A stretch of 64,000 nt of DNA, taken from positions 1 through 64,000 of IMG/VR virus record IMGVR_UViG_3300044655_001767. One strand, given 5' to 3'. The first letter of the stretch is position 1. The number at the start of each line of letters is the position of its first letter. The translations under genes and the position numbers were made by a program. Positions 1,905-59,178 of this stretch are shown piece by piece. Source of the DNA: a virus. The notes below the pieces were generated by a model that saw only the letters and a list, made by a program, of their open reading frames with translations, was not told the DNA's origin and did no database searches.

Positions 1905-1911
1905 TATTTAT
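1905..1911 (+). promoter_or_regulatory. TATTTAT motif, candidate phage late promoter element
   Basis: TATTTAT lies 18 nt before the ATG at 1930, in a 48-nt gap. It is one of twelve such motifs placed just before structural or late-type units in this window. Promoter function is inferred. Confidence 0.4.
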
Positions 1912-1929
1912 ATTAATAAAAGAAATATT

Positions 1930-2133
1930 ATGGAAAATAATAAATTAAATAATACGGTAGATCAATTCTTAACTCCAAAGAATGTTAAGAGAGTTTCTCA
2001 AGACGGAATGGAAAGAGAAGAATGTGATTTGATGACTGGAGAATGTTATACAATCAGAGAAAAAGACGGAATCGTTGAAAGAATAAATAAAAAATACGTC
2101 ACAAACGACGGTAGACAATTATTACAAGATTAA
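1930..2133 (+). CDS. Small hypothetical protein, 67 aa
   Basis: No family is recognised. The product is charged and soluble-looking, with two Cys (ECDLMTGECY) spaced seven residues apart, and has neither signal peptide nor membrane segment. It follows the hub-like gene after a TATTTAT motif and is followed four bases later by the proline-rich gene, so it is probably in a late virion-assembly operon. ATG start preceded by an A-rich leader. Confidence 0.6.
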   Translation: MENNKLNNTVDQFLTPKNVKRVSQDGMEREECDLMTGECYTIREKDGIVERINKKYVTNDGRQLLQD

Positions 2134-2137
2134 TACT

Positions 2138-2794
2138 ATGTTAGAGCAAAAACTACAAGAAGAATTAAATCGTTACAAAGCCATTAACAAATATGGTAAA
2201 ACGATGATAATGGAGCAAGACGTACCTCCTACAGATGTTCCACCAGCACCAGATGCTGCGGCACCTACGGATGTTCCTCCTCCACCACCGGCTGGCGACG
2301 TTCCTACGGATTTACCACCAACACCTGATGCTGATATGTCTATGGACACTCCACCATCACCTGAAATGGACAGTACGGAAGAAATTGATATTACAGATTT
2401 AGTTGACATGACTAAAAGTATAAAGAGAGATTTAGAGAATAAACAACAAGACCACGGTACTATTGTTAATAAAATGGATGATGTGTTTAGTAAATTAGGT
2501 GAGTTAGAACAAAAACTTGCTCAAATGGATCAAGTAATGGCTAAAATTGACCAATTAGGTGTTGAGGTTCAACAAATCAAACCTGAAACTCCTGTTGAGA
2601 AATTAGAAATGCGTTCTTTAGATTCATACCCATTTAATGAAAAACCAGCAGAATTTTTTGACCACAAACAAGGTGAAATGAGAGCTAGTGGAAAAAATGA
2701 ATACATTTTAACTAAAGATGATGTTGAAAATTATAACCCAACAATAAAGGCATCGTTTAACCCAGAAGAAGAGAAAGATGAATATAGCTACTAA
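2138..2794 (+). CDS. Proline-rich coiled-coil protein, possible assembly factor
   Basis: The 218-aa product has three parts: a short basic N-terminus, a low-complexity segment at about residues 28-80 built from DVPP and PPP/PD units, and an acidic helical segment at about 85-150 with heptad-like L/I spacing. The C-terminus is rich in E and K. Phage scaffold or core proteins can look like this, but no specific family is recognised. It overlaps the next gene by 17 nt, which suggests translational coupling. Confidence 0.6.
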   Translation: MLEQKLQEELNRYKAINKYGKTMIMEQDVPPTDVPPAPDAAAPTDVPPPPPAGDVPTDLPPTPDADMSMDTPPSPEMDSTEEIDITDLVDMTKSIKRDLENKQQDHGTIVNKMDDVFSKLGELEQKLAQMDQVMAKIDQLGVEVQQIKPETPVEKLEMRSLDSYPFNEKPAEFFDHKQGEMRASGKNEYILTKDDVENYNPTIKASFNPEEEKDEYSY

Positions 2795-3149
2795 AGTAAA
2801 GTTCCTCTTGGAGGTTCAAGTACAATTCAGGATTAATCATTGGCAAACTAAAGAGTTCTCAAGACATAATGCATTTGGTGGAATATATGATGCATTAGGA
2901 GATTTAATTGATAGGTTTGTTGAAGAGTCAATGGGAAAATACGGTAGATTCGTTTTAGATGATGAAAGTAAAACAATCAATTTACAGAACTTAGCGGAAC
3001 TTGACCTTAAAGGAATGTTAAAAACAACTAAAGACGCTTTAATTCAATTTACAGAAGAATTTGAATCTACAGATACTAATCTTATGAACATAAGGGACGA
3101 AATCTTAGGTGAAGTAAATAAACTACAATATCTATTAACATTAGAATAA
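2778..3149 (+). CDS. Dps/ferritin-like helical protein (DUF5856-like)
   Basis: The 123-aa product is all-helical by pattern. Its N-terminal signature (Q-x-Q-x-x-x-NHWQT, then SRHNAFGGIYDAL, then DLIDRFVEE) resembles the first helices of Dps/ferritin-like proteins, where H, D and E residues form a metal site. I recall a similar family (DUF5856) in T4-like marine phages. The length is near that of a short four-helix bundle. The role is unknown; iron binding is an inference from H21, H30, D42, D45 and E49-type positions. Cotranscribed with the preceding coiled-coil gene. Confidence 0.5.
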   Translation: MNIATKVKFLLEVQVQFRINHWQTKEFSRHNAFGGIYDALGDLIDRFVEESMGKYGRFVLDDESKTINLQNLAELDLKGMLKTTKDALIQFTEEFESTDTNLMNIRDEILGEVNKLQYLLTLE

Positions 3150-3169
3150 AAATTAAAAAATATTAAAAA

Positions 3170-3397
3170 ATGCAATCAGGATCAGCAGCTAGAACAGCGT
3201 CAAATACATCAACAGGGTCGTTAGCTTATATTGATGGTTTAATATCAGGGGCAACATCTCAAGGACTATATCAAATTACCTTAGACCCAAGATACGTGAA
3301 TGACGCGATAGTAACCACATTAACAAATTATGGTTATAAAATTCAGACTAAGAACAATTTTATGGGTACCAATAACGATTATGTGATTAGTTGGTAA
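3170..3397 (+). CDS. Small hypothetical protein, 75 aa
   Basis: The N-terminus is rich in Ser, Ala and Thr, and is followed by a segment (AYIDGLISGATSQGLYQI, then VNDAIVTTLTNYGYKI) that looks like a small alpha/beta virion protein. No cysteine, signal peptide or membrane segment is seen and no family is recognised. It is the last gene before the terminator at 3423, so it closes the hub-side late operon. Confidence 0.55.
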   Translation: MQSGSAARTASNTSTGSLAYIDGLISGATSQGLYQITLDPRYVNDAIVTTLTNYGYKIQTKNNFMGTNNDYVISW

Positions 3398-3422
3398 TAA
3401 AAAAATACTTTAAAAATAATTC

Positions 3423-3451
3423 AACCCAGATTTCACAGTCTGGGTTTTTTT
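3423..3451 (+). terminator. Rho-independent terminator
   Basis: An 8-bp perfect stem (AACCCAGA at 3423-3430, TCTGGGTT at 3439-3446) with an 8-nt loop is followed by a T tract. It separates the late operon from gp32. Confidence 0.85.
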
Positions 3452-3498
3452 ATGTATATTATATCATAAATGATTATTAAAATTTAAATCAAAATCAC

Positions 3499-4341
3499 AT
3501 GTCTACATTTGACGCAGTACTTGCACAGTACGAGAAAAACAAAAACGCCACAAGTGGCAATAGCAACAAAATGTCCTCAGAGGACAGAATGAAACGTTAT
3601 TTCACAACCGTATTACCTAAGGGTTCTAAGGGTGAAGAAAGACGTATTCGTATTTTACCAACAAAAGACGGTTCTTCTCCGTTTGTTGAGGTTTACTTCC
3701 ACGAAATTCAAGTGGATGGAAAATGGGTTAAATTATATGACCCAAAACAAGAAGGAAAACGTTCACCATTAAATGAGGTTAATGAAGCTTTAATGGGTAC
3801 GGGTGTTGAGGCTGATAGAGAAGCCGCACGTCAATATCGTTCTCGTAAATTCTATATCGTTAAAGTTATAGATAGAGACCACGAATCTGACGGAGTTAAA
3901 TTTTGGAGATTTAAACACAACCATAAAGGTGATGGTGTTATCGACAAAGTATTCCCAATCTTCCGTAATAAAGGTGATGTTACCAATTCTGAAACAGGTC
4001 GTGACTTAATCTTGTCTTTAACCTTAACAAAGGCAGGTACAGGAAAAGAGTACACTGTTATTAATTCAGTATTAAATGATGACCCAAGTCCATTACATAC
4101 TGACGCTGACGTTGCAAAAACGTGGTTAGAAGATGAATTAACTTGGTCTGATGTTTACTCTAAAAAGGGTGAAGATTATTTGGAAATGGTTGCAAGAGGT
4201 GAGGTTCCACGTTGGGACACCGCAAGTAGCAAATGGGTTTCTAATTTGACAACAGAAGAAACTATCGGAGCACCGAAATCTTCTACTCCTGTGGTTGACC
4301 CACAAGACGATGCGGATGTAGATGGAGATCTTCCGTTCTAA
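3499..4341 (+). CDS. 32: Single-stranded DNA-binding protein, T4 gp32-like
   Basis: The 280-aa product starts with a basic N-terminal region, followed by the gp32-type core (RMKRYFTTVLPKG, RRIRILPTKDG, FVEVYFHEIQ), and then FYIVKVIDRDHE and WRFKHNHKGDGV. Length and position directly before uvsX fit gp32, which coats ssDNA at the replication fork and recruits helicase and recombinase. The tail is acidic and ends DDADVDGDLPF. That resembles the D-D-I/L-P-F tip of bacterial SSB more than the T4 gp32 acidic tail. A host-like -7 element (TATATTAT, 3455-3462) lies upstream and a hairpin follows the gene, consistent with high early expression. Confidence 0.85.
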   Translation: MSTFDAVLAQYEKNKNATSGNSNKMSSEDRMKRYFTTVLPKGSKGEERRIRILPTKDGSSPFVEVYFHEIQVDGKWVKLYDPKQEGKRSPLNEVNEALMGTGVEADREAARQYRSRKFYIVKVIDRDHESDGVKFWRFKHNHKGDGVIDKVFPIFRNKGDVTNSETGRDLILSLTLTKAGTGKEYTVINSVLNDDPSPLHTDADVAKTWLEDELTWSDVYSKKGEDYLEMVARGEVPRWDTASSKWVSNLTTEETIGAPKSSTPVVDPQDDADVDGDLPF

Positions 4342-4350
4342 TTATTTAAC

Positions 4351-4378
4351 GGGGTGGTGAAATATCCGCCCCATTTTT
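4351..4378 (+). terminator. Hairpin plus T run between gp32 and uvsX
   Basis: GGGGTGG (4351-4357) pairs with CCGCCCC (4366-4372, one G-T pair) and is followed by five T. It could terminate or attenuate so that gp32 is made in excess over uvsX. Confidence 0.6.
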
Positions 4379-4390
4379 AAAAACAAAAAC

Positions 4391-5371
4391 ATGGCAGGTA
4401 TTAAAAAAACAGATTTTTCAGCAATTAAAAAAAAATTCTCAAAAGAGGCCGAATATAAACCAGACCGTTTCTTTGATTTGGGAGATGCTTTCTTGGATGC
4501 TTGTGGTATTCCAGGTCCTGCAATGGGACACATCAATATGTTATTAGGACATAGTGATACGGGTAAAACTACAGCACTTGTAAAGGCAGCGGTAGATGCA
4601 CAAAAGAAAGGTGTTGTTCCTGTGTTTGTAATTACAGAACAAAAATGGAGTTGGGACCACGCCGAATTAATGGGGTTTAATAAAGACGGAGACTACCTTT
4701 TTAATAGTGATTTTGAGTATATTGAGCAAATTACAGAATATATAAATGAACTATTAGATGCACAAGAAAAAGGTGATTTACCTCACGATTTATTAATTCT
4801 TTGGGATTCGGTTGGTTCAGTTCCATGTAAGATGACATATGATGGTAAAGGTGGTAAACAACACAATGCGTCGGTATTAGCTGACAAAATTGGAATGGGT
4901 ATTAATCAACGTATCTCAGGTTCAAGAAGAACAGATAAACCTTATACAAACACGTTAATCATTGTAAACCAACCTTGGGTAGAATTACCTGACAATCCTT
5001 TTGGACAACCAAAGATTAAAGCAAAGGGCGGTGAAGCAATTTGGTTAAACTCAAGTATTGTATTCTTATTTGGTAATCAAAAAGGAGCGGGAACAACTAA
5101 AATCTCTATCACTAAAGATAAGAGAAAAGTTAAAATTGCAACAAGAACAAAAATCTCAATTATGAAAAACCACATCAATGGTTTAGGATATGAGGATGGA
5201 CGTATCTTGGTTACATCACACGGATTTATGCCAGGTAGAGAAGACGCTGAAGAGAAGAAATCTATCGAGGAATATAAAAAAGAAAGTGGTGATTACATCA
5301 GTAAGATGTTAGGTGTTAATGTTACAGACATCGCAGACGTAGAAGTTGTAACAGAAGAAAGTGATCTATAA
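4391..5371 (+). CDS. uvsX: UvsX/RecA-like recombinase
   Basis: This 326-aa protein catalyses homologous pairing and strand exchange in recombination-dependent phage replication. Walker A is GHSDTGKTT at residues 53-61 and Walker B is LLILWDS at 134-140. The strand ending NTLIIVNQPWVELP and the KAKGGEAIWLNSS segment match the L1/L2 DNA-binding region of UvsX-type RecA proteins. The C-terminus is acidic. It sits between gp32 and the 5' nuclease, the expected partners. An A-rich leader precedes the ATG, with no Shine-Dalgarno sequence. Confidence 0.92.
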   Translation: MAGIKKTDFSAIKKKFSKEAEYKPDRFFDLGDAFLDACGIPGPAMGHINMLLGHSDTGKTTALVKAAVDAQKKGVVPVFVITEQKWSWDHAELMGFNKDGDYLFNSDFEYIEQITEYINELLDAQEKGDLPHDLLILWDSVGSVPCKMTYDGKGGKQHNASVLADKIGMGINQRISGSRRTDKPYTNTLIIVNQPWVELPDNPFGQPKIKAKGGEAIWLNSSIVFLFGNQKGAGTTKISITKDKRKVKIATRTKISIMKNHINGLGYEDGRILVTSHGFMPGREDAEEKKSIEEYKKESGDYISKMLGVNVTDIADVEVVTEESDL

Positions 5372-5381
5372 ATTATTTTAA

Positions 5382-6410
5382 ATGTCGGTTTTACTTGTTG
5401 ATGGAGACAATCTACTCACAATTGGTTTTTACGGTGTCAAAAATGCTTTTCATAAAGGACAACATGTTGGGGGAATATATCATTTCCTTAATACTCTTAG
5501 GAGAGCGTTTGAGTACTACCATTTAGATAAGATTGTAGTATTTTGGGATGGACACGAAGGTTCACAAAACCGAAAGAAAATATACATTCATTACAAGGAA
5601 AACCGACGTTCAAGATTAAGGTCGGAAGAAGAATTACAATCTTATTTAAGTCAAAGAGATAGGGTTAAACAATATCTTGAAGAACTATATGTAAGACAGG
5701 GTGAATATGAATTTTGTGAGACAGATGATAACATTGCTTATTACACACAAAACTCACCAGATGAAAATAAAATAATTTATTCTTCAGACGGAGACCTCAC
5801 CCAATTGGTTTCAGAAAACACACAAATTTACAATCCGTCTCACGGAAAGTTATACAAACAAAATGATACGATAGTTTATGACAAAGAAGACATCTTAATT
5901 GAAAACGTTAGGTTGGTTAAGATGATATGTGGTGATTCGTCAGACAACATTGCAGGAATTAAAGGAATGGGTGTTAAAAGATTTCTATCTTTTTTCCCTG
6001 AACTTAGAACCGAATCAATCTCAGTTCAACAAGTTAAAGAAAGGAGTGAACTTCTTTTTGAACAAGACAAACACAACAAATTAATTACAAATTTACTAAC
6101 AGGTGTTACTAAACACGGAGTATTTGGGGAAGAGTTCTTTGACGTAAACAATCGTATCGTGAGTTTGGATGAACCTTTTTTAAGTGATGAGGCGAAAGAA
6201 AACATTGACCTTCTAATAAACGAGTCATTAGACCAAGAAGGAAGATCTTATAAAAACGCAATGAAAATGATGATGGACGATGGACTGTTCAATATGTTAC
6301 CCAAATCAGATGACGCATGGACAAAGTTTTTAAATCCATTCTTACGTTTAACAAGAAAAGAAAAAAATAAAATAAAAACAAAAACAATTAAAGTAAAAAC
6401 CAATGAGTAG
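5382..6410 (+). CDS. rnh: 5'-3' exonuclease / flap nuclease, T4 RNase H-like
   Basis: This 342-aa PIN/FEN-family nuclease removes RNA primers and 5' flaps on the lagging strand. Signatures in order: VDGDNLL at the N-terminus (first Asp cluster), VVFWDGHEG at about 52-60, YSSDGDLTQLV at about 131-141 (second acidic cluster), and CGDSSDNIAGIKGMGVK, the helix-hairpin-helix region that binds the 5' duplex. The basic C-terminal tail (Lys-rich) may bind DNA or gp32. It lies 10 nt after uvsX and overlaps the next gene by 8 nt. Confidence 0.88.
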   Translation: MSVLLVDGDNLLTIGFYGVKNAFHKGQHVGGIYHFLNTLRRAFEYYHLDKIVVFWDGHEGSQNRKKIYIHYKENRRSRLRSEEELQSYLSQRDRVKQYLEELYVRQGEYEFCETDDNIAYYTQNSPDENKIIYSSDGDLTQLVSENTQIYNPSHGKLYKQNDTIVYDKEDILIENVRLVKMICGDSSDNIAGIKGMGVKRFLSFFPELRTESISVQQVKERSELLFEQDKHNKLITNLLTGVTKHGVFGEEFFDVNNRIVSLDEPFLSDEAKENIDLLINESLDQEGRSYKNAMKMMMDDGLFNMLPKSDDAWTKFLNPFLRLTRKEKNKIKTKTIKVKTNE

Positions 6411-6861: not shown

Positions 6862-6886
6862 TTTAAAACATATATAAAAACAAAAC

Positions 6887-10735: not shown

Positions 10736-10742
10736 TATTTAT
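10736..10742 (+). promoter_or_regulatory. TATTTAT motif, candidate phage late promoter element
   Basis: TATTTAT lies five nt before the gp25 ATG at 10748. If it acts as a -10 box, the transcript would be almost leaderless. Inferred. Confidence 0.45.
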
Positions 10743-13074: not shown

Positions 13075-13081
13075 TATTTAT
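13075..13081 (+). promoter_or_regulatory. TATTTAT motif, candidate phage late promoter element
   Basis: TATTTAT lies seven nt before the ATG at 13089. A weak AT-rich inverted repeat (13056-13062 with 13070-13076) overlaps its first bases. Inferred. Confidence 0.4.
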
Positions 13082-13088
13082 TAAAAGA

Positions 13089-16000
13089 ATGATACAGAAG
13101 CATAGAATATCCACAAACATTGGGAAGGACCAAATAGTCAATCTTGAATTAAAACAAGATTTTGATTTTTTGGAAGTTCTATCGTTAAGATTCACTCAAA
13201 AGGATGTTTATTCATCTATGTGTTCGGATTATGGGGTTGTGTGTGGTCGTATTTCAGTTAATAATGGTTTGGGCGTACCAAATGCCAGAGTATCGTTATT
13301 TATTCCACAATTAGAAATTCATTCAAATGACCCAGTTATATCTGCATTATATCCCTATACTGAAATCGGGGGCAAAGATAGTAACAATTATAGATACAAT
13401 TTGTTACCATCAAGAAAACAACATGGCGGACATGAACCCACCGGTACATTCTTTGACCAAGAAGATATTTTAACAAGAGAAGAAGTTTTAGAGGTGTATG
13501 AAACTTATTATTCGTATACAGTTAAAACAAATAGTTCTGGTGATTTTATGATTTGGGGAGTTCCATTAGGACAACAAACAATTCACGTTGATGTTGATTT
13601 GTCCGATATTGGTTGTTTCTCTTTAAGACCTTACGATTTCATGAGACAAGGTGATGGAGTGGATAAATTTAAAAACAAATACACATTTAAATCATCTGAA
13701 GATTTAAGTACGTTACCACAAATTGTTTCATTTGATAAAACAATTGAAGTTTATCCTTTTTGGGGTAATGATGATTTTTGTGAAATTGGTTTAACAAGAA
13801 CTGATTTTGATTTATCAGAGAAAGGAATTAATATAACACCAACAGCATTTATTATTGGTGGAATATACGGTGATAACGGTAAAAGTGCAGTTAATAAAAA
13901 CTGTAGACCCAAAAAGAAAATGGGTAGAAAATGTGATTTGGTTGCCAAATCTGGTAAGATTGAAGCAATTAGATTTACACCAAAAAAAGAGACCATAATA
14001 ATATCCGGAACATCAATTACGGCACCAATATTAGAAGAGGTTAATTTAGAAGAAGATATACCCGACGACGGAGGTTTTGTGTTTCCAATTGAAATGAATA
14101 TGGATTATGTTTATACAAATGAGTTTGGTGAAAATGAAATTACTAATGATCCAAATAAAGGTGTACCAACTTCCGCGTGTTATCGTTTTAGAATCGGTAT
14201 GAACGATAATGATTTAAGTAGAGCAAGAGCTAACGCTGACTACCTAATTCCAAATATTAGAGAATTTAATTCATCTGAAAGTGAGATAGATGCGTCATAT
14301 TATTTCGGTACACAATGGAGTGGATATCCAACAAATGCCGTTAGCACTAATTCTAATTACGGTATTTTATATAGTGAAATGGGAGAATATTATCCAAGAG
14401 ATTATTTTTATAGATTTAATTATAATAAAGTTTATACTGTTTCATCGTTTCATAGTAATTACCAAGTTGGTGGAAATTTTGCAAACATAAATGAATTACA
14501 TCCATCAGAGGAAGAGGATTGTGGAGATAAACTAACACCACCATCAAATTTTGGATTTAAGAATTATACATTTACATTATTAATTGCAGATTTTCTTTTA
14601 TTATTAGATTATGTATTAAAACTTATTATTCTAACAACGTTAAATATTTTAGTAAAAGATATTTTAGGTCCATTTGCGGAATTATTAATTGATATTGGTG
14701 TAACTAAAGGTGCGGGTAGAGATTTAAGAAGATTTGTAAGTAATATGCAAATAGATAACACAACAAAATTATCATTAATAAATTTTCCAGAATGTACTGA
14801 ATGTGCACAAGATGTAAGTATTGTTGCGGAAGAGGGATGTGCATTGTACGACACAGTATATAATGATGCGATAATAACGGGTGTTTATGTTGATAATGGT
14901 ATTGGAGGAAGAACGTATAAACCAAGTCCATCCACCGGTGATAAAGTAGTTGCGACATTATTGGCGGGTGGTGATTCTATGACCCATATACCATTTCCTA
15001 ATTATAGTTCAAATAAAAATATAAGAGATATTGAAAGTGAAGTTTTTAGTAGACTACCAATTCCGGCCAGCCATAGAAGCGAATTTATGAATGGTATTTT
15101 TTATATAGTACCAGGTACTCACACATTGTCTAGATTGATTAAAATAATAAACGAATATTATAGAAGAAAAAGAGTTGGAAAGATGTTTTGTGGTGGAATT
15201 GTGAATTACGCATTTATCGATAATTGGTTATCCGGCTCATTGTATTTCACTCAATTCAAAGCTAAAAGAGTAATAACGGCAATTAATCGTAATAATCAAA
15301 ATACCGCAAATTATTGTAGAGACATTGCACGTCTAGTGGTCGGACAAAAAAGACTATATTATTGTTCGGCCCCAACATCAAATGGGTTATCGTTTAGTGT
15401 AGATAATATAAAAAAACCAACAACATTTGTTGATTTAGGTCCAAGAGATGAATTTATTAAAGAAATTTGTATTGATCCAAAATTAGACCCAAACTGTTCA
15501 GTATCACGTTCAATCGGTGCGACATCATATCAAGATTTAGGTGAATTATTAGGGTTAGCAATTAACTATAGAATGGATGTTGCAAATGCTAACGGCAATT
15601 TAAATATGTTTTTTGATAATAAAGGATTTTCAAGTGGAGTAGGAATATCAAATGTTTTAGATGGTGATATTTTACAACTATTATCTATAAATAATGAAAC
15701 TGGAATTGAAGAATTTGATTTACAAAATCCACAATATCTCGGATACCAATTTAATGTTTTAGATCCGGAAGAATATCCACAAGTTTTTAAAGGAGGAACA
15801 TCAATTTACGGACCATTACCTCTTACATTGGAATTATCAGAAGATGGACAAAGAATTAGATCTTGTTTAAATGAGCCTGGTAGATTAACTGAATCGTCAC
15901 AAAATGTCCCATTTTATTTATGGGATAAAAAAGGAAATGGATTTGGTGATTATGGAACAAATAAAAATAATCAATCATGGGATTATAGTGGAGTACAATC

Positions 16001-19953: not shown

Positions 19954-19960
19954 TATTTAT
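19954..19960 (+). promoter_or_regulatory. TATTTAT motif, candidate phage late promoter element
   Basis: TATTTAT lies 16 nt before the ATG at 19977, in a 38-nt gap before the first fibre gene. Inferred. Confidence 0.4.
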
Positions 19961-29841: not shown

Positions 29842-29848
29842 TATTTAT
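29842..29848 (+). promoter_or_regulatory. TATTTAT motif, candidate phage late promoter element
   Basis: TATTTAT lies 25 nt before the ATG at 29874. Inferred. Confidence 0.4.
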
Positions 29849-30655: not shown

Positions 30656-30662
30656 TATTTAT
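30656..30662 (+). promoter_or_regulatory. TATTTAT motif, candidate phage late promoter element
   Basis: TATTTAT lies 17 nt before the ATG at 30680, at the end of an 80-nt gap. A TATATT-type element also occurs in the same gap at about 30630. Inferred. Confidence 0.4.
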
Positions 30663-31249: not shown

Positions 31250-31256
31250 TATTTAT
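31250..31256 (+). promoter_or_regulatory. TATTTAT motif, candidate phage late promoter element
   Basis: TATTTAT lies 12 nt before the ATG at 31269, in a 25-nt gap. Inferred. Confidence 0.45.
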
Positions 31257-35204: not shown

Positions 35205-35211
35205 TATTTAT
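35205..35211 (+). promoter_or_regulatory. TATTTAT motif, candidate phage late promoter element
   Basis: TATTTAT lies five nt before the ATG at 35217, in a 28-nt gap. Inferred. Confidence 0.45.
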
Positions 35212-41025: not shown

Positions 41026-41625
41026 ATGATTTTTAATTTCAAAGATTTTGAAGATTTATTTTTAGAGAAATTTATTGCACCAACTTACGAACAATGGAAA
41101 TGTGAAAAAGGTTCAGGTAAAGATATTGTTGGTAAGAATTTTGAATATTTTAATAAATCATTATATACCACGTTTGATTTGCCCATATTTGAAGAATCAA
41201 AAAAAATCTTAAACACTGAATTCAATCCTGATGTTGTTGTTGGAGAATACTCAAGAATTATTGTTGTTGAAGAAGATAAAGGACATTATTTGGATTCAAC
41301 TTTTATGAAACGTGCAATGGCAAATGCTGGAGAAATAATTTTTGAATGTATAGAACGTAATTACACTATACCATATATTATAATAACTTGCCCAACTACT
41401 TATAATAGATATGATGTTATTTTTAATAAGCAAATAAGATTATTTAATAATGATATTAGAGAAGCGATGAAACAAAAATTAATTTACCAACCATTATGTT
41501 TAAATGACAGAGTACCAGCAAGTAAATATTTTACTTATGGTGGTGAGTCACCATTTAAATTGGATCAAGAATTAGTAGAAAAAAGGATAAACTTTATTTA
41601 TAAAATAAAAAATGAATTTGAATAA
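41026..41625 (+). CDS. Candidate restriction endonuclease (PD-(D/E)XK type), 199 aa
   Basis: No named family is recognised. The central part NPDVVVGEYSRIIVVEEDK has the PD-x(13)-E-x-K arrangement of type II restriction enzymes: D69, E83, K85. The size is typical of an orthodox REase. It overlaps the start of the adjacent DNA methyltransferase by 14 nt, the normal tight linkage of an R-M pair. I infer a cognate endonuclease or a phage-protective homing-type nuclease. A plain hypothetical protein is the alternative. Confidence 0.5.
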   Translation: MIFNFKDFEDLFLEKFIAPTYEQWKCEKGSGKDIVGKNFEYFNKSLYTTFDLPIFEESKKILNTEFNPDVVVGEYSRIIVVEEDKGHYLDSTFMKRAMANAGEIIFECIERNYTIPYIIITCPTTYNRYDVIFNKQIRLFNNDIREAMKQKLIYQPLCLNDRVPASKYFTYGGESPFKLDQELVEKRINFIYKIKNEFE

Positions 41626-45435: not shown

Positions 45436-45442
45436 TATTTAT
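45436..45442 (+). promoter_or_regulatory. TATTTAT motif, candidate phage late promoter element
   Basis: TATTTAT lies 14 nt before the ATG at 45457, directly after the clpP hairpin. Inferred. Confidence 0.4.
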
Positions 45443-47286: not shown

Positions 47287-48102
47287 ATGAAAAAATCCAT
47301 TTTAGTTAATCCAGACGAGATTCAATTGTATATCAAAGATTTACGAAAAATTCCTGTAATGTCACATCAAAGACAGGAAGAAGTTTTTGAATTATTAAAC
47401 AATAAAAAAACAGATAAAGAAACTAGAGGAAAACTTTATAATGAATTGGTTGTTGGTAATTTAAGATTTGTAATATCTGTGGCTAAAATGTTTCAAAATC
47501 AGGGAATGGATTTGTTGGACATTATTTCAGAAGGTAATATTGGTTTAATTAAAGCGGCGGAAAGATTTGACCCGACGACTGGTTTAAAATTTATTTCATA
47601 CGCGGTGTGGTGGGTTAGACAATCAATAATGGCATCTCTAAATGAAAACTGTAGAACAATTCGTATACCTTCAAATTTAGTACAAGATGCTCAAAAACAA
47701 AAGAAAATTGAAATAAGTGAAGAAGATAATTTCTTCATAAACAATGTTGAAGATGAAACACCAATCGGTGTTAATCTCCCATACTGTATTGGTTTATATA
47801 AAGAAATTAATGAAGATGGTGACCAATTAATTGATGTTATACCTAATAGAGAGGCTGAAAGTCCTGACGCCATTCTTAATTCACCGGAAGAAATAAAGAA
47901 AAAAGTTTCAGCAATGTTAAGTGTGTTGGATGATAGAGAAAAAATAATCATTGAAAGATATTATGGGTTAACGGGTATAGAATCTAACTTGGAAGATTTA
48001 GGTGAGGAGTTTGGTTGTACTAAAGAACGTATAAGACAATTACGTGATAAGGCTATTAAGAAACTAAGAAACGAAAGTTTTGGTCTCTTAAACTATTTAT
48101 AA
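47287..48102 (+). CDS. Sigma-70 family RNA polymerase sigma factor
   Basis: The 271-aa product has region 1.2 (IQLYIKDLRKIPVMSHQRQE), region 2 (NLRFVISVAKMFQNQGMDLL, then EGNIGLIKAAERFDPTTGLK and FISYAVWWVRQSIMASLNE), a reduced region 3, and region 4 (VLDDREKIIIERYYGL, then CTKERIRQLRDKAIKKLR, the -35-binding helix-turn-helix). It resembles the short primary sigma factor of Bacteroidota (about 287 aa), with a divergent linker in place of the region 3 helices. I infer that it redirects host RNA polymerase to phage promoters, possibly the TATTTAT motifs, as T4 gp55 does. Confidence 0.88.
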   Translation: MKKSILVNPDEIQLYIKDLRKIPVMSHQRQEEVFELLNNKKTDKETRGKLYNELVVGNLRFVISVAKMFQNQGMDLLDIISEGNIGLIKAAERFDPTTGLKFISYAVWWVRQSIMASLNENCRTIRIPSNLVQDAQKQKKIEISEEDNFFINNVEDETPIGVNLPYCIGLYKEINEDGDQLIDVIPNREAESPDAILNSPEEIKKKVSAMLSVLDDREKIIIERYYGLTGIESNLEDLGEEFGCTKERIRQLRDKAIKKLRNESFGLLNYL

Positions 48103-49712: not shown

Positions 49713-50298
49713 TAGTTTAATTATTAATAAAAGAAAATCTAAAAAAACTCAAATATTCCTATACGATACACAAAGAAGATTTGACGACTTTGTTAATAAA
49801 ATTGAACATCGTAATAATGGTAAGTTTGATGACATCCCACATTTTATAGTTACAAAATTAGGTAGTACATATCAATTGTTTGATACCAACTATAGTTCTA
49901 ATACGTTTAATGACTCACAGAACGATAAGAGGATGATTAAAATAGCAATTGAGAACTTGGGTTGGTTGAATAAGAACACCATCACTGGTGTCCTTAATAA
50001 TTGGATTGGAGACCCATATAGGTCAGAACCCCATATACGTAATTGGAGAAACTACTATTTTTGGGATAAGTACACTGAAATCCAAATGAATTCACTATCT
50101 GAACTATGTGATTCCCTATGTGATAAACACGAAATACCAAAACAAACCGTACCGTCCCAAGGATATTTAGAAAACATATCTAATTTCAAAGGAATAGTAT
50201 GTAAATCCAACTTTTCAAGTATTTATACAGATATAAACCCTTCTTTTAATTTTGGGGTCTTTTTTAATTATGCAAATGAAAATGAAAACAGATTATGA
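49675..50298 (+). CDS. Amidase-fold protein (N-acetylmuramoyl-alanine amidase-like), endolysin candidate
   Basis: The 207-aa product has the layout of the amidase_2/T7 lysozyme fold: TQIFLYDTQRR (first strand), DIPHFIVTKLGSTYQLFD (second and third strands), RMIKIAIENLGWL, then KYTEIQMNSLSELCDSLCDK (substrate helix) and FKGIVCKSNFSSIYTDINPS. The zinc positions expected in T7 lysozyme (HxSA-type His, late His and Cys/Asp) are not filled in an obvious way: the first strand has YDT and the late motif CKSN. It may be an unusual lytic enzyme or a non-catalytic cell-wall binder. No signal peptide. Confidence 0.55.
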   Translation: MLVIHEIEKIDYNSLIINKRKSKKTQIFLYDTQRRFDDFVNKIEHRNNGKFDDIPHFIVTKLGSTYQLFDTNYSSNTFNDSQNDKRMIKIAIENLGWLNKNTITGVLNNWIGDPYRSEPHIRNWRNYYFWDKYTEIQMNSLSELCDSLCDKHEIPKQTVPSQGYLENISNFKGIVCKSNFSSIYTDINPSFNFGVFFNYANENENRL

Positions 50299-51036: not shown

Positions 51037-51881
51037 TGAAGTACCTTAAACCAAATATTGACCATGAGTGGATGGAAGCACTTCGTTACCGTGAATTTGA
51101 AAAAATGGGTAAGGATGGTTGGAAAGATATTGCATCAAACGATTACGATATTACCAATTACAATAAGATTAAAGATGTGTTAAAGAATGTTGATTTAGAT
51201 TTTGACACATTAGAAGACGAAAAAAAGGAAAGATTTAATAAAGCATTTAAAAAGGGTAAAGTAGAAATACCAATGGTGGTTAAATTTGGGGATAATGATT
51301 ATCATCTTTTAGGTGGTAATACAAGATTGGCGGGATTAATTGACAAAGGGATTAACCCAAAATTGTGGGTTGTGAATATGACAAAAAAGAAAAAGGAAGA
51401 GGTTAAAGAAACTGGTGCAGACTCTTCAGGATCATTTAGTGGTCCTTTGTTTGGTAAATCAAAAGTGGTTAAAAGACCAATTTCAAGTATACCTAATCTA
51501 AACCTTACTGAAGAGGAAGAGATTAAAGAAGTGACCGCAGGTGACGCTGGACAATTTGATGTTCCGGCATTTGGTAAAACAACTAAAGGTGGACGTAAAA
51601 ATCCATTAAAAATAGACGGACCTAAAAGTATCTACAAAGGTAGAGCGGTTACAGATAGGAATTTCCCTAAATGGGGAGGTCCTGATAGTGTTTTTGTAAA
51701 AGTTAAAGAGAAGTGTAAGAAATTCCCTTATTGTAACCAAGGTGACACTGGTGCAATTGAATTCATACACGAAGACGATGAATTACAAGAATCCATTAAG
51801 GAAATATCAAAAAAATACGGAATTCTACATAAAGATGTGGAAAATATCGTATTAAATGAGATTAACAAGATATTTATTTAA
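51036..51881 (+). CDS. ParB/Srx-like domain protein, 281 aa
   Basis: I chose the ATG at 51036, which overlaps the previous stop as TAATG, over an in-frame GTG at 50988. Residues about 70-110 contain VEIPMVVKFGDNDYHLLGGN followed by TRLAGLIDKG, the GGNTR loop of ParB/sulfiredoxin-like domains that bind nucleotide. Two short related motifs, SGPLFGK and DVPAFGK, lie in the linker. The C-terminal part (KEKCKKFPYCNQGDTGAIEF) has two Cys, and the end is a helix pair. Nuclease or ATP/CTP-binding activity is unproven. Confidence 0.6.
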   Translation: MKYLKPNIDHEWMEALRYREFEKMGKDGWKDIASNDYDITNYNKIKDVLKNVDLDFDTLEDEKKERFNKAFKKGKVEIPMVVKFGDNDYHLLGGNTRLAGLIDKGINPKLWVVNMTKKKKEEVKETGADSSGSFSGPLFGKSKVVKRPISSIPNLNLTEEEEIKEVTAGDAGQFDVPAFGKTTKGGRKNPLKIDGPKSIYKGRAVTDRNFPKWGGPDSVFVKVKEKCKKFPYCNQGDTGAIEFIHEDDELQESIKEISKKYGILHKDVENIVLNEINKIFI

Positions 51882-53651: not shown

Positions 53652-53691
53652 ATATTTTTCCGTATATTCATATTAAAAACCGAATAATATT

Positions 53692-54046: not shown

Positions 54047-54050
54047 TACC

Positions 54051-54832: not shown

Positions 54833-55454
54833 AAAGTTCTTCTTTTTTAAATCCTTTAGATTCTAATAGTTTATATAATAAACTTCTTTGGTGTGTGGTT
54901 ATGTCTTTAACAAAAAAGAAATTACCTTTTTTTCTACTCACCAAATCCTTTTTTACAATTTCAAATAGTCTATTGGCGTCGTTTATATTCTTATTCCCAA
55001 ATAACTTAATATCATCATCAACCTGTACAAATAGTTTATTGTTTAAAGTGAAAATTTGAGCAACCTCTGTTATGGGTAATATTTGTTCCATCATTACATG
55101 ATATCTAATTCTCTTCTTTATTTGGTAATCGTATATCTGTTCTTCTTGCCAATACGGGATTATCTCTTTGATACGAAATTTATCGTTTTCAATTATTGCT
55201 GGTTGATTCCTACCCAAACTATCTCTAACATATGTTGCAGTTGCCCAACGGTTATTTGGGAAGATAAGTGCCAATTCAAAAACTAATTCATTTTTTTTTC
55301 TCTCACCCCCTTGTTGTTTAAGAAAGGGTGGAACTTGTTGGGTCTTAAACTCCCTCCAATATTCATATGCGGTGGTTCTTCTCATACTCCTATGTAATAT
55401 TTTAACCCTTTTTTGGTTACAGAAAAGTACTATAAAATATTTCCCGTTTTTCAT
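54813..55454 (-). CDS. Hypothetical protein on the minus strand, 213 aa
   Basis: The start at 55454 is fixed by a 4-nt ATGA overlap with the upstream minus-strand gene. The product is basic at the N-terminus (KNGKYFIVLFCNQKRVKIL), with AYEYWREFKTQQVPPF and LALIFPNNRWATATYVRDSL, and ends near FFFVKDITTHQRSLLYKLLE. No family I can name. Convergent to the + strand unit with a 20-nt tail overlap. Confidence 0.6.
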   Translation of the reverse strand: MKNGKYFIVLFCNQKRVKILHRSMRRTTAYEYWREFKTQQVPPFLKQQGGERKKNELVFELALIFPNNRWATATYVRDSLGRNQPAIIENDKFRIKEIIPYWQEEQIYDYQIKKRIRYHVMMEQILPITEVAQIFTLNNKLFVQVDDDIKLFGNKNINDANRLFEIVKKDLVSRKKGNFFFVKDITTHQRSLLYKLLESKGFKKEELFRHYSY

Positions 55455-55603
55455 AATAGTTTTATAATTAAAGAATAGAGACCGTAACCACCTAGAATAA
55501 ACCATATAATTGAGAATATAACAATTCCCTTAGGTACAAAATCCCCAGATTTAATTAACTCCTCTTTAATGTTCTTTTTTTCTTTACAAGATGTGCAACT
55601 CAT
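55451..55603 (-). CDS. Small CxxC membrane protein on the minus strand, 50 aa
   Basis: The product begins MSCTSCKEKKNIKEELIKSG and continues with one hydrophobic segment (IVIFSIIWFILGGYGLYSLI). The CxxC and the single membrane segment are typical of small phage envelope proteins. The stop TGA overlaps the ATG of the 213-aa gene by four bases. It is transcribed away from the Dam gene, so the 70-nt gap at 55604-55674 is a divergent promoter region. Confidence 0.65.
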   Translation of the reverse strand: MSCTSCKEKKNIKEELIKSGDFVPKGIVIFSIIWFILGGYGLYSLIIKLL

Positions 55604-55674
55604 ATTAAAATATATACTTTTAATTTCTCTTTATCAATTTTTTTTGTTATATTTTTAAATATAATGAATGATAA

Positions 55675-56517
55675 ATGATTAGTTACATCGGAGGTAAAGC
55701 TCGTATAGGTAAATGGATAGTACCACAAATCCCGACGGATATTGAAACATATGTTGAAGGGTTTAGTGGGATGTTCTGGGTATTTTTTAATATGGATTTA
55801 AGTAAGTTCCCCAATCTTAAAACGGTAGTGTATAATGACTATAATAGGTTAAATGCTAACCTAATGAAATGGTCTAAACAATATGACATTCTATGGGAGG
55901 AGTTAGCAAAATACCCGTGCCAACAATTAGGTGTAATTGATACACCACCCGAATATGCTGAAATGTTTAAAACATACCAAAAAGAGGTATTTAATCCTGA
56001 ATTAGTTATCACCGAAGAAAATAGTTTAGACATTGCGGGGAAGTATGTTTATGTGTTGTGTCAAGTATTCTCAGGATCAAAACCTGAAACTGCCGCTTAC
56101 ACAGATTATAAAGGAAAGTATCGTTGTAAAGTTTTAATCTTTATGGATAAATTAAAACACCCAAAGTATAGAGAACATTTTGATAAGTTAACGTTTGTTG
56201 AGAATATGGATTTTGAGGTGGTTGTTGAAAAATATGATTCACCAACAACTTATTTCTATATGGACCCACCATATTGGAAAACTGAAAATTACTATTCAAA
56301 TCATGACTTTGATGTGAATGATCACACAAGATTGGCGGAGTGTATTAAAAACATTGAAGGTAAATTTAGTTTGTCATATTACGATTTTCCTAAATTGGTT
56401 GAATGGTTTCCAAAAGACCAATATAAATGGAATCAAAAAGATTTTGCTAAAGCAGCTGCGGCTAAAAAAGACGGTAAACAAAATATGGGTACTGAACTTT
56501 TAATAATGAACTATTAA
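55675..56517 (+). CDS. dam: DNA adenine methylase, Dam-like
   Basis: The 280-aa product has the alpha-class D12 layout: motif I region ISYIGGKARIGKWI with YVEGFSGMFWVFF, VVYNDYNRLNANLM, then YFYMDPPYW with DPPY at 197-200, and LSYYDFPKLVEWF. It methylates adenine N6, probably at a GATC-like site by family, and protects phage DNA from host or competing nucleases. The region upstream holds TATATTTT and lies between divergent genes. No R partner is adjacent. Confidence 0.82.
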   Translation: MISYIGGKARIGKWIVPQIPTDIETYVEGFSGMFWVFFNMDLSKFPNLKTVVYNDYNRLNANLMKWSKQYDILWEELAKYPCQQLGVIDTPPEYAEMFKTYQKEVFNPELVITEENSLDIAGKYVYVLCQVFSGSKPETAAYTDYKGKYRCKVLIFMDKLKHPKYREHFDKLTFVENMDFEVVVEKYDSPTTYFYMDPPYWKTENYYSNHDFDVNDHTRLAECIKNIEGKFSLSYYDFPKLVEWFPKDQYKWNQKDFAKAAAAKKDGKQNMGTELLIMNY

Positions 56518-56520
56518 TTA

Positions 56521-56527
56521 TATTTAT
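56521..56527 (+). promoter_or_regulatory. TATTTAT motif, candidate phage late promoter element
   Basis: TATTTAT lies six nt before the ATG at 56534, or twelve before the in-frame ATG at 56540. The gap is only 16 nt. Inferred. Confidence 0.4.
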
Positions 56528-56533
56528 AAAAAA

Positions 56534-57064
56534 ATGAATATGGAAACAGCATGGTATGTGGTAAAAGTTTTACCAGGGAAAGAAAGATCATTAAACGAAC
56601 AATTTAATAAAGACATCGGATTAGGTAGAATTTCTAATATTGTGAGATTCGTATGTCCAACTGAAAAAGAATTGGTAGTTCTTAAAAATAAAAAAGTTTT
56701 AAGAGAGAAAGTATTATATAGTGGATATCTTTATTTTGAATCTATTAAAAGATTACAAGATGATGATTTAAAAGTCATATCTTTGATTCCAAATATTATG
56801 GGTATGATGGGAGATCGGATGCCAATGTTATTAAAAGAAACTGATGTAAGAAGAATATTGAAAGATGATACATTAGAAGAACATATTGATGCAAAGAAAT
56901 TGAAATACATTTCAGGAGAACAAGTTAAAGTAAACGAAGGTCCATTCACATCATTTGAAGGAACCATATCTGAAGTTAAAGGTGACCGAGTTGACGTTGA
57001 AATAAAAATATTTGGGCGTAACACTGCCGTTTCTTTAATGTTATCACAAATAGAAAAGATATAA
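56534..57064 (+). CDS. nusG: NusG/Spt5-like transcription factor
   Basis: The 176-aa product has the NGN domain (TAWYVVKVLPGKERSLNEQF, then KVLREKVLYSGYLYFE) and a C-terminal KOW domain (YISGEQVKVNEGPFTSFEG followed by TISEVKGDRVDVEIKIFGR). This is the size of a full NusG. The ATG at 56540 is also possible. NusG rides on RNA polymerase and affects pausing, termination and coupling. A phage copy may act as an antiterminator or replace host NusG on late transcripts. It starts a TATTTAT-headed unit. Confidence 0.85.
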   Translation: MNMETAWYVVKVLPGKERSLNEQFNKDIGLGRISNIVRFVCPTEKELVVLKNKKVLREKVLYSGYLYFESIKRLQDDDLKVISLIPNIMGMMGDRMPMLLKETDVRRILKDDTLEEHIDAKKLKYISGEQVKVNEGPFTSFEGTISEVKGDRVDVEIKIFGRNTAVSLMLSQIEKI

Positions 57065-57402
57065 TGGATTTATCACCCGAAGTTTTAATTTATGTTCAGT
57101 CAGTTAAAAATTACTTTGCAACAAACAAAGAAGCTGGTGAATATTTTTTAAGTGGAACTAACGAAGAATTATTCTTTAAACATTTAACTGAAATTGCTCA
57201 AAAGAATTTTACTAAGTCAGGAGAATCAATGCTTAATAGAGACCAATTTGAATTATTACGAAAGACAATATTAGCAATAAATGTAATTGAAAAAAAATCA
57301 TTTACAAAAAAAGTGGAAATTAAAAGCGAGGATTTCAATTACGATAATGGAGTTTTTATCGGACTTCCTTTTCCCAATTTTGGTTTAATTTGTCTTAATT
57401 AG
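57064..57402 (+). CDS. Hypothetical protein, 112 aa
   Basis: Unrecognised. The start overlaps the nusG stop (TAATG). Mostly helical (LIYVQSVKNYFATNKEAGEY, then RDQFELLRKTILAINVIE) with a short Gly/Pro/Phe-rich end (GVFIGLPFPNFGLI). Coupling to nusG suggests a shared timing or partnership. Confidence 0.6.
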   Translation: MDLSPEVLIYVQSVKNYFATNKEAGEYFLSGTNEELFFKHLTEIAQKNFTKSGESMLNRDQFELLRKTILAINVIEKKSFTKKVEIKSEDFNYDNGVFIGLPFPNFGLICLN

Positions 57403-57421
57403 TTTTTATTTACAAACATTT

Positions 57422-57428
57422 TATTTAT
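57422..57428 (+). promoter_or_regulatory. TATTTAT motif, candidate phage late promoter element
   Basis: TATTTAT lies nine nt before the ATG at 57438, in a 35-nt gap. Inferred. Confidence 0.4.
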
Positions 57429-57437
57429 ATTTAATCA

Positions 57438-58526
57438 ATGGAAAAATTATTACCCCAAAATTATGCAATTTACGATACTGTATATGGAAGTGAAACACCA
57501 ACTGAACAGTACTATACGATTAAGTATGATAAAATACCTTCTAAATTTTTAGATGGTGGAACATTCTACGACCCAATGATAATAGATGAATTAAAAAAAT
57601 TGGGGTTTGTTGAAGAGGCGAGATGTAACATAAAAAATAAAAGACACGATTCTTCTTCACAATCTTTATTTGTATATGATAGTAAAGAAATTATAATTAG
57701 AGTTTATAGTAGTAACAATAACAACACAAATAAAAAATCTAAAGATGATTTATTATTATTAGATTTTTCATATGACATTAAAAAGGGTGAATTAAAAGAC
57801 CAATTAGATTTAGATGTAATTAAAATACACCAAAGACCAAAAAAGAAAGCGAGTATTCAACTTGTTAAAAGTGACATGGGTCATTTAGATACTGAAGATT
57901 ATGATTTATTTGTTCCACCTACTGATTTAGAATTGAACTATGGTTCTGAGTTTTTAAAAATACACGATGTCATTGTTGATAGATTAAATTCTGAATATGA
58001 TAAGGGAATTATTCTTTTACACGGAGATCCTGGTACAGGTAAGACCTCATACATTAAACATTTGACAAGTTTAGTAAAAGATAAGGATATTTTATTCATC
58101 CCACCATCAATGGCTGAAATGTTATCTGAACCAACAATCATTCCATTTTTAATGGACCATAAGAACTCTATATTGATTATTGAGGATGCTGAAAGAGTTA
58201 TATCAGACAGAGAAGGTAATGGTTCACCTGCGGGAGTTTCTAATATCCTTAACTTAACTGACGGTATTTTAGGTGACTGTTTGAACATTCAAGTTATTGC
58301 AACCTTTAACATGAAGAGAGAGAAGATAGACCAAGCTCTTCTTCGTAAGGGTCGTTTAATTGCTGAACATAAGTTTGAGAAACTTTCAATTGATGACACA
58401 AACAAATTATTAAAACATTTAGAAAAAAATCAAGAAGTTGGGGAAGGTATGGTTTTAGCTGATATTTATAACATAGACACAGAGGTCTATAAAACATCCA
58501 CAAAAGGAAATAAAATAGGATTTTAA
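57438..58526 (+). CDS. AAA+ ATPase, BCS1/Cdc48-like core
   Basis: The 362-aa product has an N-terminal domain of about 170 residues of unknown type and one AAA+ module. Walker A is GDPGTGKT at 196-203, Walker B is ILIIED at 245-250, followed by VIATFNMKREKIDQALLRKG (sensor 1 and arginine finger region). No protease or helicase domain is fused. It could be a remodelling chaperone in tail or DNA assembly; ClpP at 44729 is not an obvious partner, because no IGF loop was noticed. Precedes thioredoxin. Confidence 0.8.
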   Translation: MEKLLPQNYAIYDTVYGSETPTEQYYTIKYDKIPSKFLDGGTFYDPMIIDELKKLGFVEEARCNIKNKRHDSSSQSLFVYDSKEIIIRVYSSNNNNTNKKSKDDLLLLDFSYDIKKGELKDQLDLDVIKIHQRPKKKASIQLVKSDMGHLDTEDYDLFVPPTDLELNYGSEFLKIHDVIVDRLNSEYDKGIILLHGDPGTGKTSYIKHLTSLVKDKDILFIPPSMAEMLSEPTIIPFLMDHKNSILIIEDAERVISDREGNGSPAGVSNILNLTDGILGDCLNIQVIATFNMKREKIDQALLRKGRLIAEHKFEKLSIDDTNKLLKHLEKNQEVGEGMVLADIYNIDTEVYKTSTKGNKIGF

Positions 58527-58535
58527 AATTATAAA

Positions 58536-58841
58536 ATGGAATACGTTACATCCGCACAAGTTGCACAATTACAATCAGAAGGAAAAAAATTATTAGTTCA
58601 GTACACAGCCGATTGGTGTTCACCATGTAAGGCATTAGCACCAAGATTAACAGAATTATCATCAGGATATCCTGACGTTACATTTGTTAAAGTAAATGTT
58701 GATGAAAATCAAGACGCAGTTATGGAGTTAGGTATTAGTACTGTACCTACAATTATGATTTATAATGGAGATGTGTTAGTAAACAGATCACTTGGTGCAA
58801 ATATTGACAGCGTTTATACAAAAATTTTAGACACATTATAG
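58536..58841 (+). CDS. Thioredoxin
   Basis: The 101-aa product has the thioredoxin fold: YTADWCSPCKALAPRL with the WCSPC redox site at 27-31, VTFVKVNVDENQDAV, and the cis-Pro loop STVPTIMIY. SPC in place of GPC is a common variant. It probably reduces the C-terminal Cys pair of the phage ribonucleotide reductase. It lies nine nt after the AAA+ gene and three before glutaredoxin, so it belongs to the same operon. Confidence 0.9.
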   Translation: MEYVTSAQVAQLQSEGKKLLVQYTADWCSPCKALAPRLTELSSGYPDVTFVKVNVDENQDAVMELGISTVPTIMIYNGDVLVNRSLGANIDSVYTKILDTL

Positions 58842-58844
58842 TTT

Positions 58845-59117
58845 ATGGGTAGTAAGGTAATTATTTTTACACTAAATAATTGTTCTCATTGCACTGTTTT
58901 AAAAAATTTATTAAATAAAGAGAAGATAGATTTTGATGAAATAGAAATTGAGGAGAACAAAGAAATATGGGACAAAGTAGTTTCACAAACAGGTCACAAC
59001 GCAGTGCCAACGGTGTTTTTACCCAATGAAGGTACAGATGAAGGGATAGTTTTTGTTCCCGAAAGAGACTATGAAAGTAAGGAAGAACTCATAGAAATGA
59101 TTAAAAAACATATATAA
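58845..59117 (+). CDS. Glutaredoxin-like protein
   Basis: The 90-aa product shows VIIFTLNNCSHCTVLKNLL with a CSHC redox site at 13-16, IDFDEIEIEENKEIWDKV, and the cis-Pro segment NAVPTVFLP. Small dithiol glutaredoxins of T4-type phages supply electrons to ribonucleotide reductase; here a class II enzyme is present. It ends the operon at the terminator at 59121. Confidence 0.85.
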   Translation: MGSKVIIFTLNNCSHCTVLKNLLNKEKIDFDEIEIEENKEIWDKVVSQTGHNAVPTVFLPNEGTDEGIVFVPERDYESKEELIEMIKKHI

Positions 59118-59120
59118 AAA

Positions 59121-59149
59121 AAAAGGGATTAAAAAAAATCCCTTTTTTT
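59121..59149 (+). terminator. Rho-independent terminator after glutaredoxin
   Basis: AAAAGGGATT (59121-59130) pairs with AATCCCTTTT (59137-59146), six-A loop, followed by further T. The T and A flanks make it usable in both directions. Confidence 0.75.
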
Positions 59150-59171
59150 ATGTAATATACCTAAATAAAAG

Positions 59172-59178
59172 TATTTAT
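59172..59178 (+). promoter_or_regulatory. TATTTAT motif, candidate phage late promoter element
   Basis: TATTTAT lies 21 nt before the ATG at 59200, directly downstream of a terminator. Inferred. Confidence 0.45.

Follow-up and report, generated by a model that had tools for sequence, protein, structure and literature searches.

RESULTS

Analysis of the initial 64 kb of a virus record of 88,802 bases (IMG/VR IMGVR_UViG_3300044655_001767; this 64,000-nucleotide stretch is called the window) and of related phage genomes indicated that the heptamer TATTTAT, found shortly upstream of start codons, is most likely the late promoter used by a large set of related phages, read by a gp55-like sigma factor (sigma2) with the host core polymerase, with transcription starting at a run of adenines downstream of the box. 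The group probably infects mostly Bacteroidota. Enrichment and polarity of the box, the A-run fixed to it, the absence of a −35 element, the classes of spacing, the bias among gene classes, and the homology and co-occurrence of the sigma factor were computed from the genomes.

Enrichment of TATTTAT before genes

Genes were called with a simple codon-usage caller, which missed or misplaced some starts, and a unit head was defined as a called gene with an upstream gap of ≥15 nt. Starts 10748 and 45457 were missed by the caller and were added by hand for the placement count in the window. A sequence-only reading had listed 12 copies of TATTTAT, all of which were present 5 to 25 nt ahead of start codons (Table 1), but the list had overlooked copies before 48106 and 51884, as well as doubtful copies before 41612 and 50252. 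As that reading had stated, TATTTAT was not seen in the 50 nt upstream of 3499 (gp32), 4391 (uvsX), 6887 (helicase), 36758 (ruvC), or 37525 (primase), nor in the 50 nt upstream of 40708, 44729, 47287, or the methylase gene at 55675.

On both strands of the whole window, TATTTAT occurred 40 times, against 54.95 expected from dinucleotide shuffles. The motif had been expected to be frequent by chance in AT-rich DNA, which was not the case; because the total fell below expectation, overall frequency alone means nothing, and placement counts. Plus-strand copies lay ≤45 nt upstream of starts in 16 of 31 cases, in zones covering 3.05% of the window (binomial P = 1e-16), and copies in the opposite orientation lay in the same zones in 1 of 9 cases. 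The proposed comparison of positions before starts with internal positions and shuffled sequence thus gave clear upstream enrichment.

In the whole 88.8-kb record, 14 of 30 unit heads were boxed (a count that excludes the uncalled heads 10748 and 45457), against a shuffled mean of 1.79 and a maximum of 7 among 500 shuffles. The count was made in intergenic DNA ≤45 nt before unit heads for this record and five related ones. TATTTAT was the top intergenic 7-mer before unit heads in all six, with boxed heads numbering 14/30, 33/84, 31/94, 63/186, 21/40, and 48/123 and shuffled means of 1.8, 6.5, 5.2, 11.7, 2.8, and 7.5, respectively; the reverse complement ATAAATA was found in 0/30, 3/84, 4/94, 9/186, 2/40, and 17/123 heads. 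The gaps are 81 to 84% A+T, a composition in which the box might occur by chance, but in none of the six records did any of 500 dinucleotide shuffles of the same gaps reach the observed count, and other orderings of the same letters were rarer; chance was rejected and is extremely improbable as an explanation. The six records are related and do not represent six independent tests, and the window's record (G000) and G001 are nearly the same phage (100% identity in two compared proteins). Among loci around sigma2 relatives, 71 of 75 had at least one boxed head.

Spacing, A-run, and predicted start points

Among 326 deduplicated pairs of box and ATG, spacers of 4, 5, and 6 nt accounted for 29, 41, and 18 pairs (88 in total), spacers of 9 and 10 nt for one pair each, and a second hump at 11 to 18 nt for 137 pairs. 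The nucleotides at positions 5, 6, and 7 after the box were A in 78, 82, and 75% of the 192 pairs with spacers of 11 to 30 nt. All spacer classes of 11 to 22 nt showed this A-run, which fell to ~60% with spacers of 23 to 45 nt, persisted with a gene caller giving no bonus for A-rich upstream sequence, and was not found after genic TATTTAT copies (n = 189). The run keeps its distance from the box however far away the ATG lies, so it belongs to the box rather than to the start codon, as expected of an initiator. In the first hump of spacings, the A of the ATG falls exactly at nt 5 to 7 after the box. No position 20 to 45 nt upstream of 228 boxes exceeded 0.11 bit; like T4-type late promoters, these are single −10-type boxes without a conserved −35 element. 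With its fixed A-run, absent −35 element, and clustering of ATGs at the A-run, the box behaves as a promoter.

The simplest reading of the spacing is that transcription would start at the A-run, 5 to 7 nt after TATTTAT. The full element would be (A)TATTTATA-N3-AAA, a late promoter with a −10-type box and no −35 element. In the first class (88 of the 326 pairs, 27%), the start point would be the A of the ATG, giving a leaderless mRNA, and the second class (137 of the 326) would have leaders of about 5 to 14 nt. Where they were tested, start codons of the first class appear correct: the G002 and G004 portal protein (spacing 5) begins at the same point as the orthologous proteins of G012 (spacing 22) and Flavobacterium phage immuto (spacing 17), and for the protein encoded at 13089, box spacing was 5 to 7 nt in all 12 related loci inspected from a set of 74. 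According to PMC6847099, Bacteroidota lack Shine-Dalgarno (SD) sequences, and 87% of predicted transcripts of F. johnsoniae have leaders of >10 nt.

Genes that carry the box

In immuto, for which gene sets were picked by deposited product name after motif positions were known, boxes preceded 9 of 12 structural heads and 1 of 7 heads of DNA, nucleotide, and chaperone genes (Fisher test, P = 0.02), the single one being groES. When immuto proteins served to mark genes in five related records, which are not phylogenetically independent, 29 of 46 virion or late-type heads were boxed, versus 1 of 21 DNA metabolism heads (P = 4e-6). PhoH, though no virion protein, was counted in the structural set (four heads, three boxed), and without it the count was 26 of 42. 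One unboxed head, that of TerL in G012, is a start-calling error. The box is therefore placed before virion genes, as T4-type late promoters are, with exceptions. Its description as a mark of late-type or structural units holds insofar as it is enriched there, but the genes for a NusG-like protein (56534) and an ATPase (57438) are also boxed.

In the head module of G002, boxes preceded the genes for the terminase, portal, and prohead protease and the gene before that for the major capsid protein (MCP); the MCP gene was unboxed. The bS21 gene of G002, on the opposite strand to the head module, was boxed, as was that of G004, and a bS21 gene in locus L268 was without TATTTAT; a PF01165 search detected bS21 in 3 of the 12 records covered. 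For bS21-encoding Bacteroidetes phages, a metatranscriptome study (PMC9723584) reports that the head module is not one operon, that the MCP gene may be transcribed with the preceding gene, and that bS21 is expressed late, with virion genes. Boxes within the G002 head module and none at the MCP gene fit this published RNA pattern. Those phages, as described, resemble G002 and G004 in the order of the head module with a reverse-strand bS21 gene, and late coexpression is reported for them; "promoter" and "sigma" have 0 mentions in the main text of PMC9723584. Late timing of the boxed genes is suggested by these placements. Overall, enrichment, the A-run, gene class, and controls give the sequence-only proposal of TATTTAT as a late promoter element good support in silico.

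Comparison with T4 and other late promoters

The late promoter consensus of phage T4 is TATAAATA. In the T4 region tested as a control, ATAAATA was the top 7-mer, and nine TATAAATA boxes were found at spacers of 14 to 28 nt. In the records studied here, TATTTAT took that place in all six instead of the T4 consensus. The box had been described as the reverse complement core of TATAAATA, which is literally true but misleading, since a promoter has a direction; when sense strands are compared, TATTTATA departs from TATAAATA at two bases only, TT replacing AA at −10/−9 (box numbering −13 to −6, as in PMC2988020). TATTTAT before T4's own heads (4/19) was considered as the same box and rejected, since these copies, in two divergent gaps, are TATAAATA seen from the opposite strand.

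Both promoter types have a single −10-type box roughly one turn ahead of the start and lack a −35 element; both stand before virion genes and go with a gp55-like sigma factor, and 6 of 8 box bases are equal. T4 gp55 holds A−12 and A−8 in deep pockets and A−9 in a shallow one, according to PMC7892883; TATTTATA retains A−12 and A−8. Apart from the TT, the two types differ in that the predicted start here is often at the ATG, whereas the nine T4 boxes lie 14 to 28 nt before it. A T4-type start lies ~13 nt after the first box base; the start here is predicted from the A-run. For Aeromonas phage Aeh1, a variant of the T4 late consensus has likewise been proposed in silico (PMC2988020), but Aeh1 varies at −13/−12 (a/gC) and the box here at −10/−9. 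We regard the box, as a sequence element, as a putative new variant of the T4-type late promoter. No mapped late promoter for this phage group was found in the open-licence literature, although a prior report elsewhere is possible, and the motif was not seen in the available portion of PMC7824862.

A gp55-like sigma factor

Two sigma factors were considered as readers: sigma1, which is encoded in the window and has regions 2 and 4, and sigma2, which was found only outside the window's record. Sigma2 was the best match of T4 gp55 in G001, G002, and G004 (E values, 5.7e-6 to 8.1e-6), where the Pfam region-2 model also matched it, below its cut-off. A profile search found it in G012 (1.9e-55) and immuto (8e-18) and also in Mel-JY01 and LR756508. 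The best PDB sequence for the profile was T4 gp55 (E = 0.0065), ahead of SigA (0.023), and the G001 protein matched phrog_234, the gp55 PHROG, at 4.7e-4. The AlphaFold model of sigma2 (predicted local distance difference test [pLDDT], 83; predicted template modeling score [pTM], 0.47) aligned with T4 gp55 at a Z score of 10.7 (120 aligned residues; root mean square deviation [rmsd], 5.6; rank 2), and whole-chain alignments to full sigma factors spanned both halves, mostly at an rmsd of 8 to 15. In both sequence and fold, sigma2 is similar to domain 2 of T4 gp55, as expected of the gp55 family.

Among 47 sigma2 relatives, gp55 Y97, which stacks on A−12, is Y in all 47. Of the other pocket residues, F86 is F in 43/47, L54 is I or L in 47/47, and R57 is found in 34/47; T99 is G in 42/47 and N13 is G in 32/47. 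The threonine that bonds A−8 in T4 gp55 is not kept. A changed preference at −10/−9 with the main contact kept is plausible from these residues. The sigma2 gene itself had no box in the 130 nt upstream in five genomes. Relatives of sigma2 are encoded on at least 584 viral-contig stretches.

Box and sigma2 occurred together in six of seven sigma2-bearing sets (G001, G002, G004, G012, immuto, and Mel-JY01 but not LR756508). In three Bacteroidota phages without sigma2, crAss001, phi14:2, and FCL-2, whose whole records were searched for it by profile, boxed heads numbered 0/19, 1/23, and 0/30 within 50,000 of 102,679, 50,000 of 100,418, and 47,000 of 47,142 bases, respectively. Mel-JY01, a Microcystis phage with sigma2, had 9 of 37 heads boxed (PP395634, 1 to 50000), and in five of these nine units, box and ATG were separated by 33 to 37 nt that included an SD-like GGAG or AGAGG. 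It is a natural experiment, with the same box at a spacing suited to its host's way of starting translation. PP395634 is also annotated with S21.

The gp55 link drawn in the sequence-only reading is thus supported, but the gp55-like protein is a gene other than the window's sigma factor. The reader of the box is likely sigma2 (232 to 260 aa), which, judging from homology and co-occurrence, would direct the host RNA polymerase core to it.

T4 partner proteins and the sigma2 C terminus

Neither the gp33 family (phrog_254; gp33 is short and divergent) nor the gp45 clamp family (phrog_223; a divergent clamp is possible) was found in seven related records, with T4 controls positive, which is an apparent difference from the T4 late system, though divergent versions of either protein are possible. 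The PF02916 clamp model gave 0/11, but its controls were silent too, and phrog_223 was used instead. Matches to the clamp loader family phrog_168 outside T4 were weak and ambiguous. Candidates for gp59 or gp33 by position beside gp32 had tempting sizes and were rejected, as they had no homology.

Sigma2 is 47 to 75 residues longer than T4 gp55. Its C terminus differs from the clamp-binding tail of gp55, with no clear match by eye, and forms an extra helical domain (model pLDDT, 84; pTM, 0.73). Alone, this domain gave weak and mixed fold matches (Z ≤ 5.5), including region 4 of sigma-E (5.1) and of SigA (5.1), sigma-54 (5.5), and an unrelated viral protein (5.5); gp33 was not seen among them, which excludes nothing. 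A fused gp55-gp33 sigma factor had not been found, according to the T4 review (PMC2988020). Sigma2 is a candidate gp55-gp33-like fusion, no more.

Other promoters and features

Unboxed heads were enriched in TATATTTG (G012) and TTATATT (G001). Aligned sites (12 and 29) had T-rich or TTTG-like sequence ~20 to 24 nt upstream, the Bacteroidota two-box type. In G001, TTATATT partly overlaps TATTTAT boxes and also precedes some structural genes and was therefore not counted as proof of an early class. Early and middle genes, and other genes without the box, may be served by such two-box promoters. A phage-encoded RNA polymerase was rejected, since PF00562 (RNA polymerase beta) was found in 0 of 11 records and in 14 of 14 controls; host RNA polymerase probably transcribes the boxed genes.

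The NusG-like elongation factor (56534 to 57064) is the first gene of its unit, behind a late-type box. A 123-aa protein (window positions 2778 to 3149) matched phrog_858, by name a starvation-inducible transcriptional regulator (E = 9.6e-17). The box before 45457 lies directly 3′ of an apparent G/C-rich inverted repeat with a T-run, noted on inspection of the sequence.

Table 1. Boxes, sigma factor genes, and bS21 genes (window positions unless a locus is named)
Feature	Coordinates	Strand	Remarks
TATTTAT box	1905..1911	+	18 nt before ATG 1930
TATTTAT box	10736..10742	+	5 nt before ATG 10748 (baseplate gp25-like); predicted leaderless
TATTTAT box	13075..13081	+	7 nt before ATG 13089 (1126-aa protein)
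TATTTAT box	19954..19960	+	16 nt before ATG 19977 (tail fibre)
TATTTAT box	29842..29848	+	25 nt before ATG 29874
TATTTAT box	30656..30662	+	17 nt before ATG 30680
TATTTAT box	31250..31256	+	12 nt before ATG 31269
TATTTAT box	35205..35211	+	5 nt before ATG 35217; predicted leaderless
TATTTAT, doubtful promoter	41595..41601	+	10 nt before 41612 (DNA methylase), within preceding gene
TATTTAT box	45436..45442	+	14 nt before ATG 45457
TATTTAT box	48094..48100	+	5 nt before ATG 48106; overlaps sigma gene end
TATTTAT, start uncertain	50220..50226	+	25 nt before TTG start called at 50252
TATTTAT box	51871..51877	+	6 nt before ATG 51884; overlaps preceding gene end
TATTTAT box	56521..56527	+	6 nt before ATG 56534 (NusG-like protein)
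TATTTAT box	57422..57428	+	9 nt before ATG 57438 (ATPase)
TATTTAT box	59172..59178	+	21 nt before ATG 59200 (tail fibre)
sigma1, regions 2 and 4	47287..48102	+	judged not to be the reader of the box
sigma2, gp55-like	G001:C1:207879-208577 (L099:7879-8577)	+	
sigma2	immuto NC_055915 78174-78872		gp118; annotated as hypothetical
bS21 gene, G002	L266:1486-1677	+	TATTTAT 5 nt before ATG and upstream host-type TATATTTG
bS21 gene, G004	L267:1471-1662	-	TATTTAT 5 nt before ATG and upstream host-type TATATTTG

DISCUSSION

Three other explanations of an enriched box were weighed. Sigma1 is a genuine sigma factor, lies in the window, and is present in 11 of 15 records tested, so that it might itself read the box, but immuto has the box before virion genes and sigma2 and no sigma1 homologue (phmmer best E = 0.19), which points to sigma2 as the reader. 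In one scan, the cellular relatives of sigma1 were mostly sigma genes of Ignavibacteria and Bacteroidota, most at 36 to 44% identity, and sigma1 possesses region 4 although the promoter is without a −35 box; sigma1 is unlikely to be the reader. It is more doubtful still that the box is a variant of the host −7 element (TANNTTTG) read by an unmodified host sigma factor. Host polymerase probably does the work, as the PF00562 result indicates, the same polymerase core is expected for the −33/−7 promoters (TTTG/TANNTTTG) of Bacteroidota, and the box stands where a −7 element would be, at a similar distance from the start (4 to 5 nt in PMC6847099). Against this, TATTTATA lacks the near-invariant T−7 and G−5 and has no upstream element, promoters of the host type, with a further box upstream, coexist with it in the same phages (TATATTTG in G012 and TTATATT in G001), and the box was nearly absent from the parts examined of the sigma2-less Bacteroidota phages.

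An action of the box at the RNA level, in signalling translation or as a site of processing, would suit its closeness to start codons and hosts without SD sequences, but was given slightly less credence than even the host −7 element. The distance from box to ATG varies from 4 to >30 nt, yet the A-run stays fixed relative to the box; in Mel-JY01, the box is far upstream of the SD-like site in five units; and at spacings of 4 to 6 nt, a promoter would leave the box outside the mRNA. A late promoter read by sigma2 remains the preferred reading.

Several observations weigh against that reading. All of its support is sequence, and transcript starts were deduced rather than taken from mapped 5′ ends; what we infer are sigma2 as reader, the precise points of initiation, expression late in infection, translation without leaders, and the hosts. 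The link between sigma2 and box is a correlation, and sigma2 was not found in the window's own record. We put this down to the fragmentary nature of the 88.8-kb record, given that sigma2 is present in G001, whose two compared proteins are identical to those of the record. An E value of 0.0065 and a Z score near 10 are modest for a helical protein and no proof alone, and the sigma2 proteins of G012 and immuto alone gave no match to phrog_234. LR756508 has sigma2, yet only 2 of 56 heads were boxed (LR756508.1:85001-185000; 100 of 484 kb). A/G-rich k-mers such as GAAGAG precede genes there, hinting at initiation of the SD type and perhaps at another late box. No exact TATTTAT stood within 60 nt of 17 of 46 structural-set heads in the five related records, and the unboxed heads included the hub gene in 5/5 cases and the full-length MCP gene in 3/3; part of the boxed units are nonstructural; and in immuto, TATTTAT was the second 7-mer, not the top one (26/90 heads).

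A wider picture is tentative. It is possible, though doubtful, that these phages have a T4-type late switch without its split parts, in which the C-terminal domain of sigma2 would replace gp33 at the polymerase flap, no gp45 would be needed, and sigma2 would read TATTTATA; many late mRNAs in Bacteroidota, where ribosomes disregard SD sites, would then be leaderless, and in the cyanophage relative the box would stand 30-odd nt upstream of an SD-like site.

The analysis gives a promoter consensus and a candidate sigma factor for a widespread phage group, and late genes become predictable from sequence. The system tests how a gp55-type sigma factor shifts box specificity, and leaderless translation is predicted to be common late in infection, in hosts whose own mRNAs mostly have leaders. 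Because immuto is an isolate with a named Flavobacterium host (Flavobacterium sp. LMO8), these predictions are testable now.

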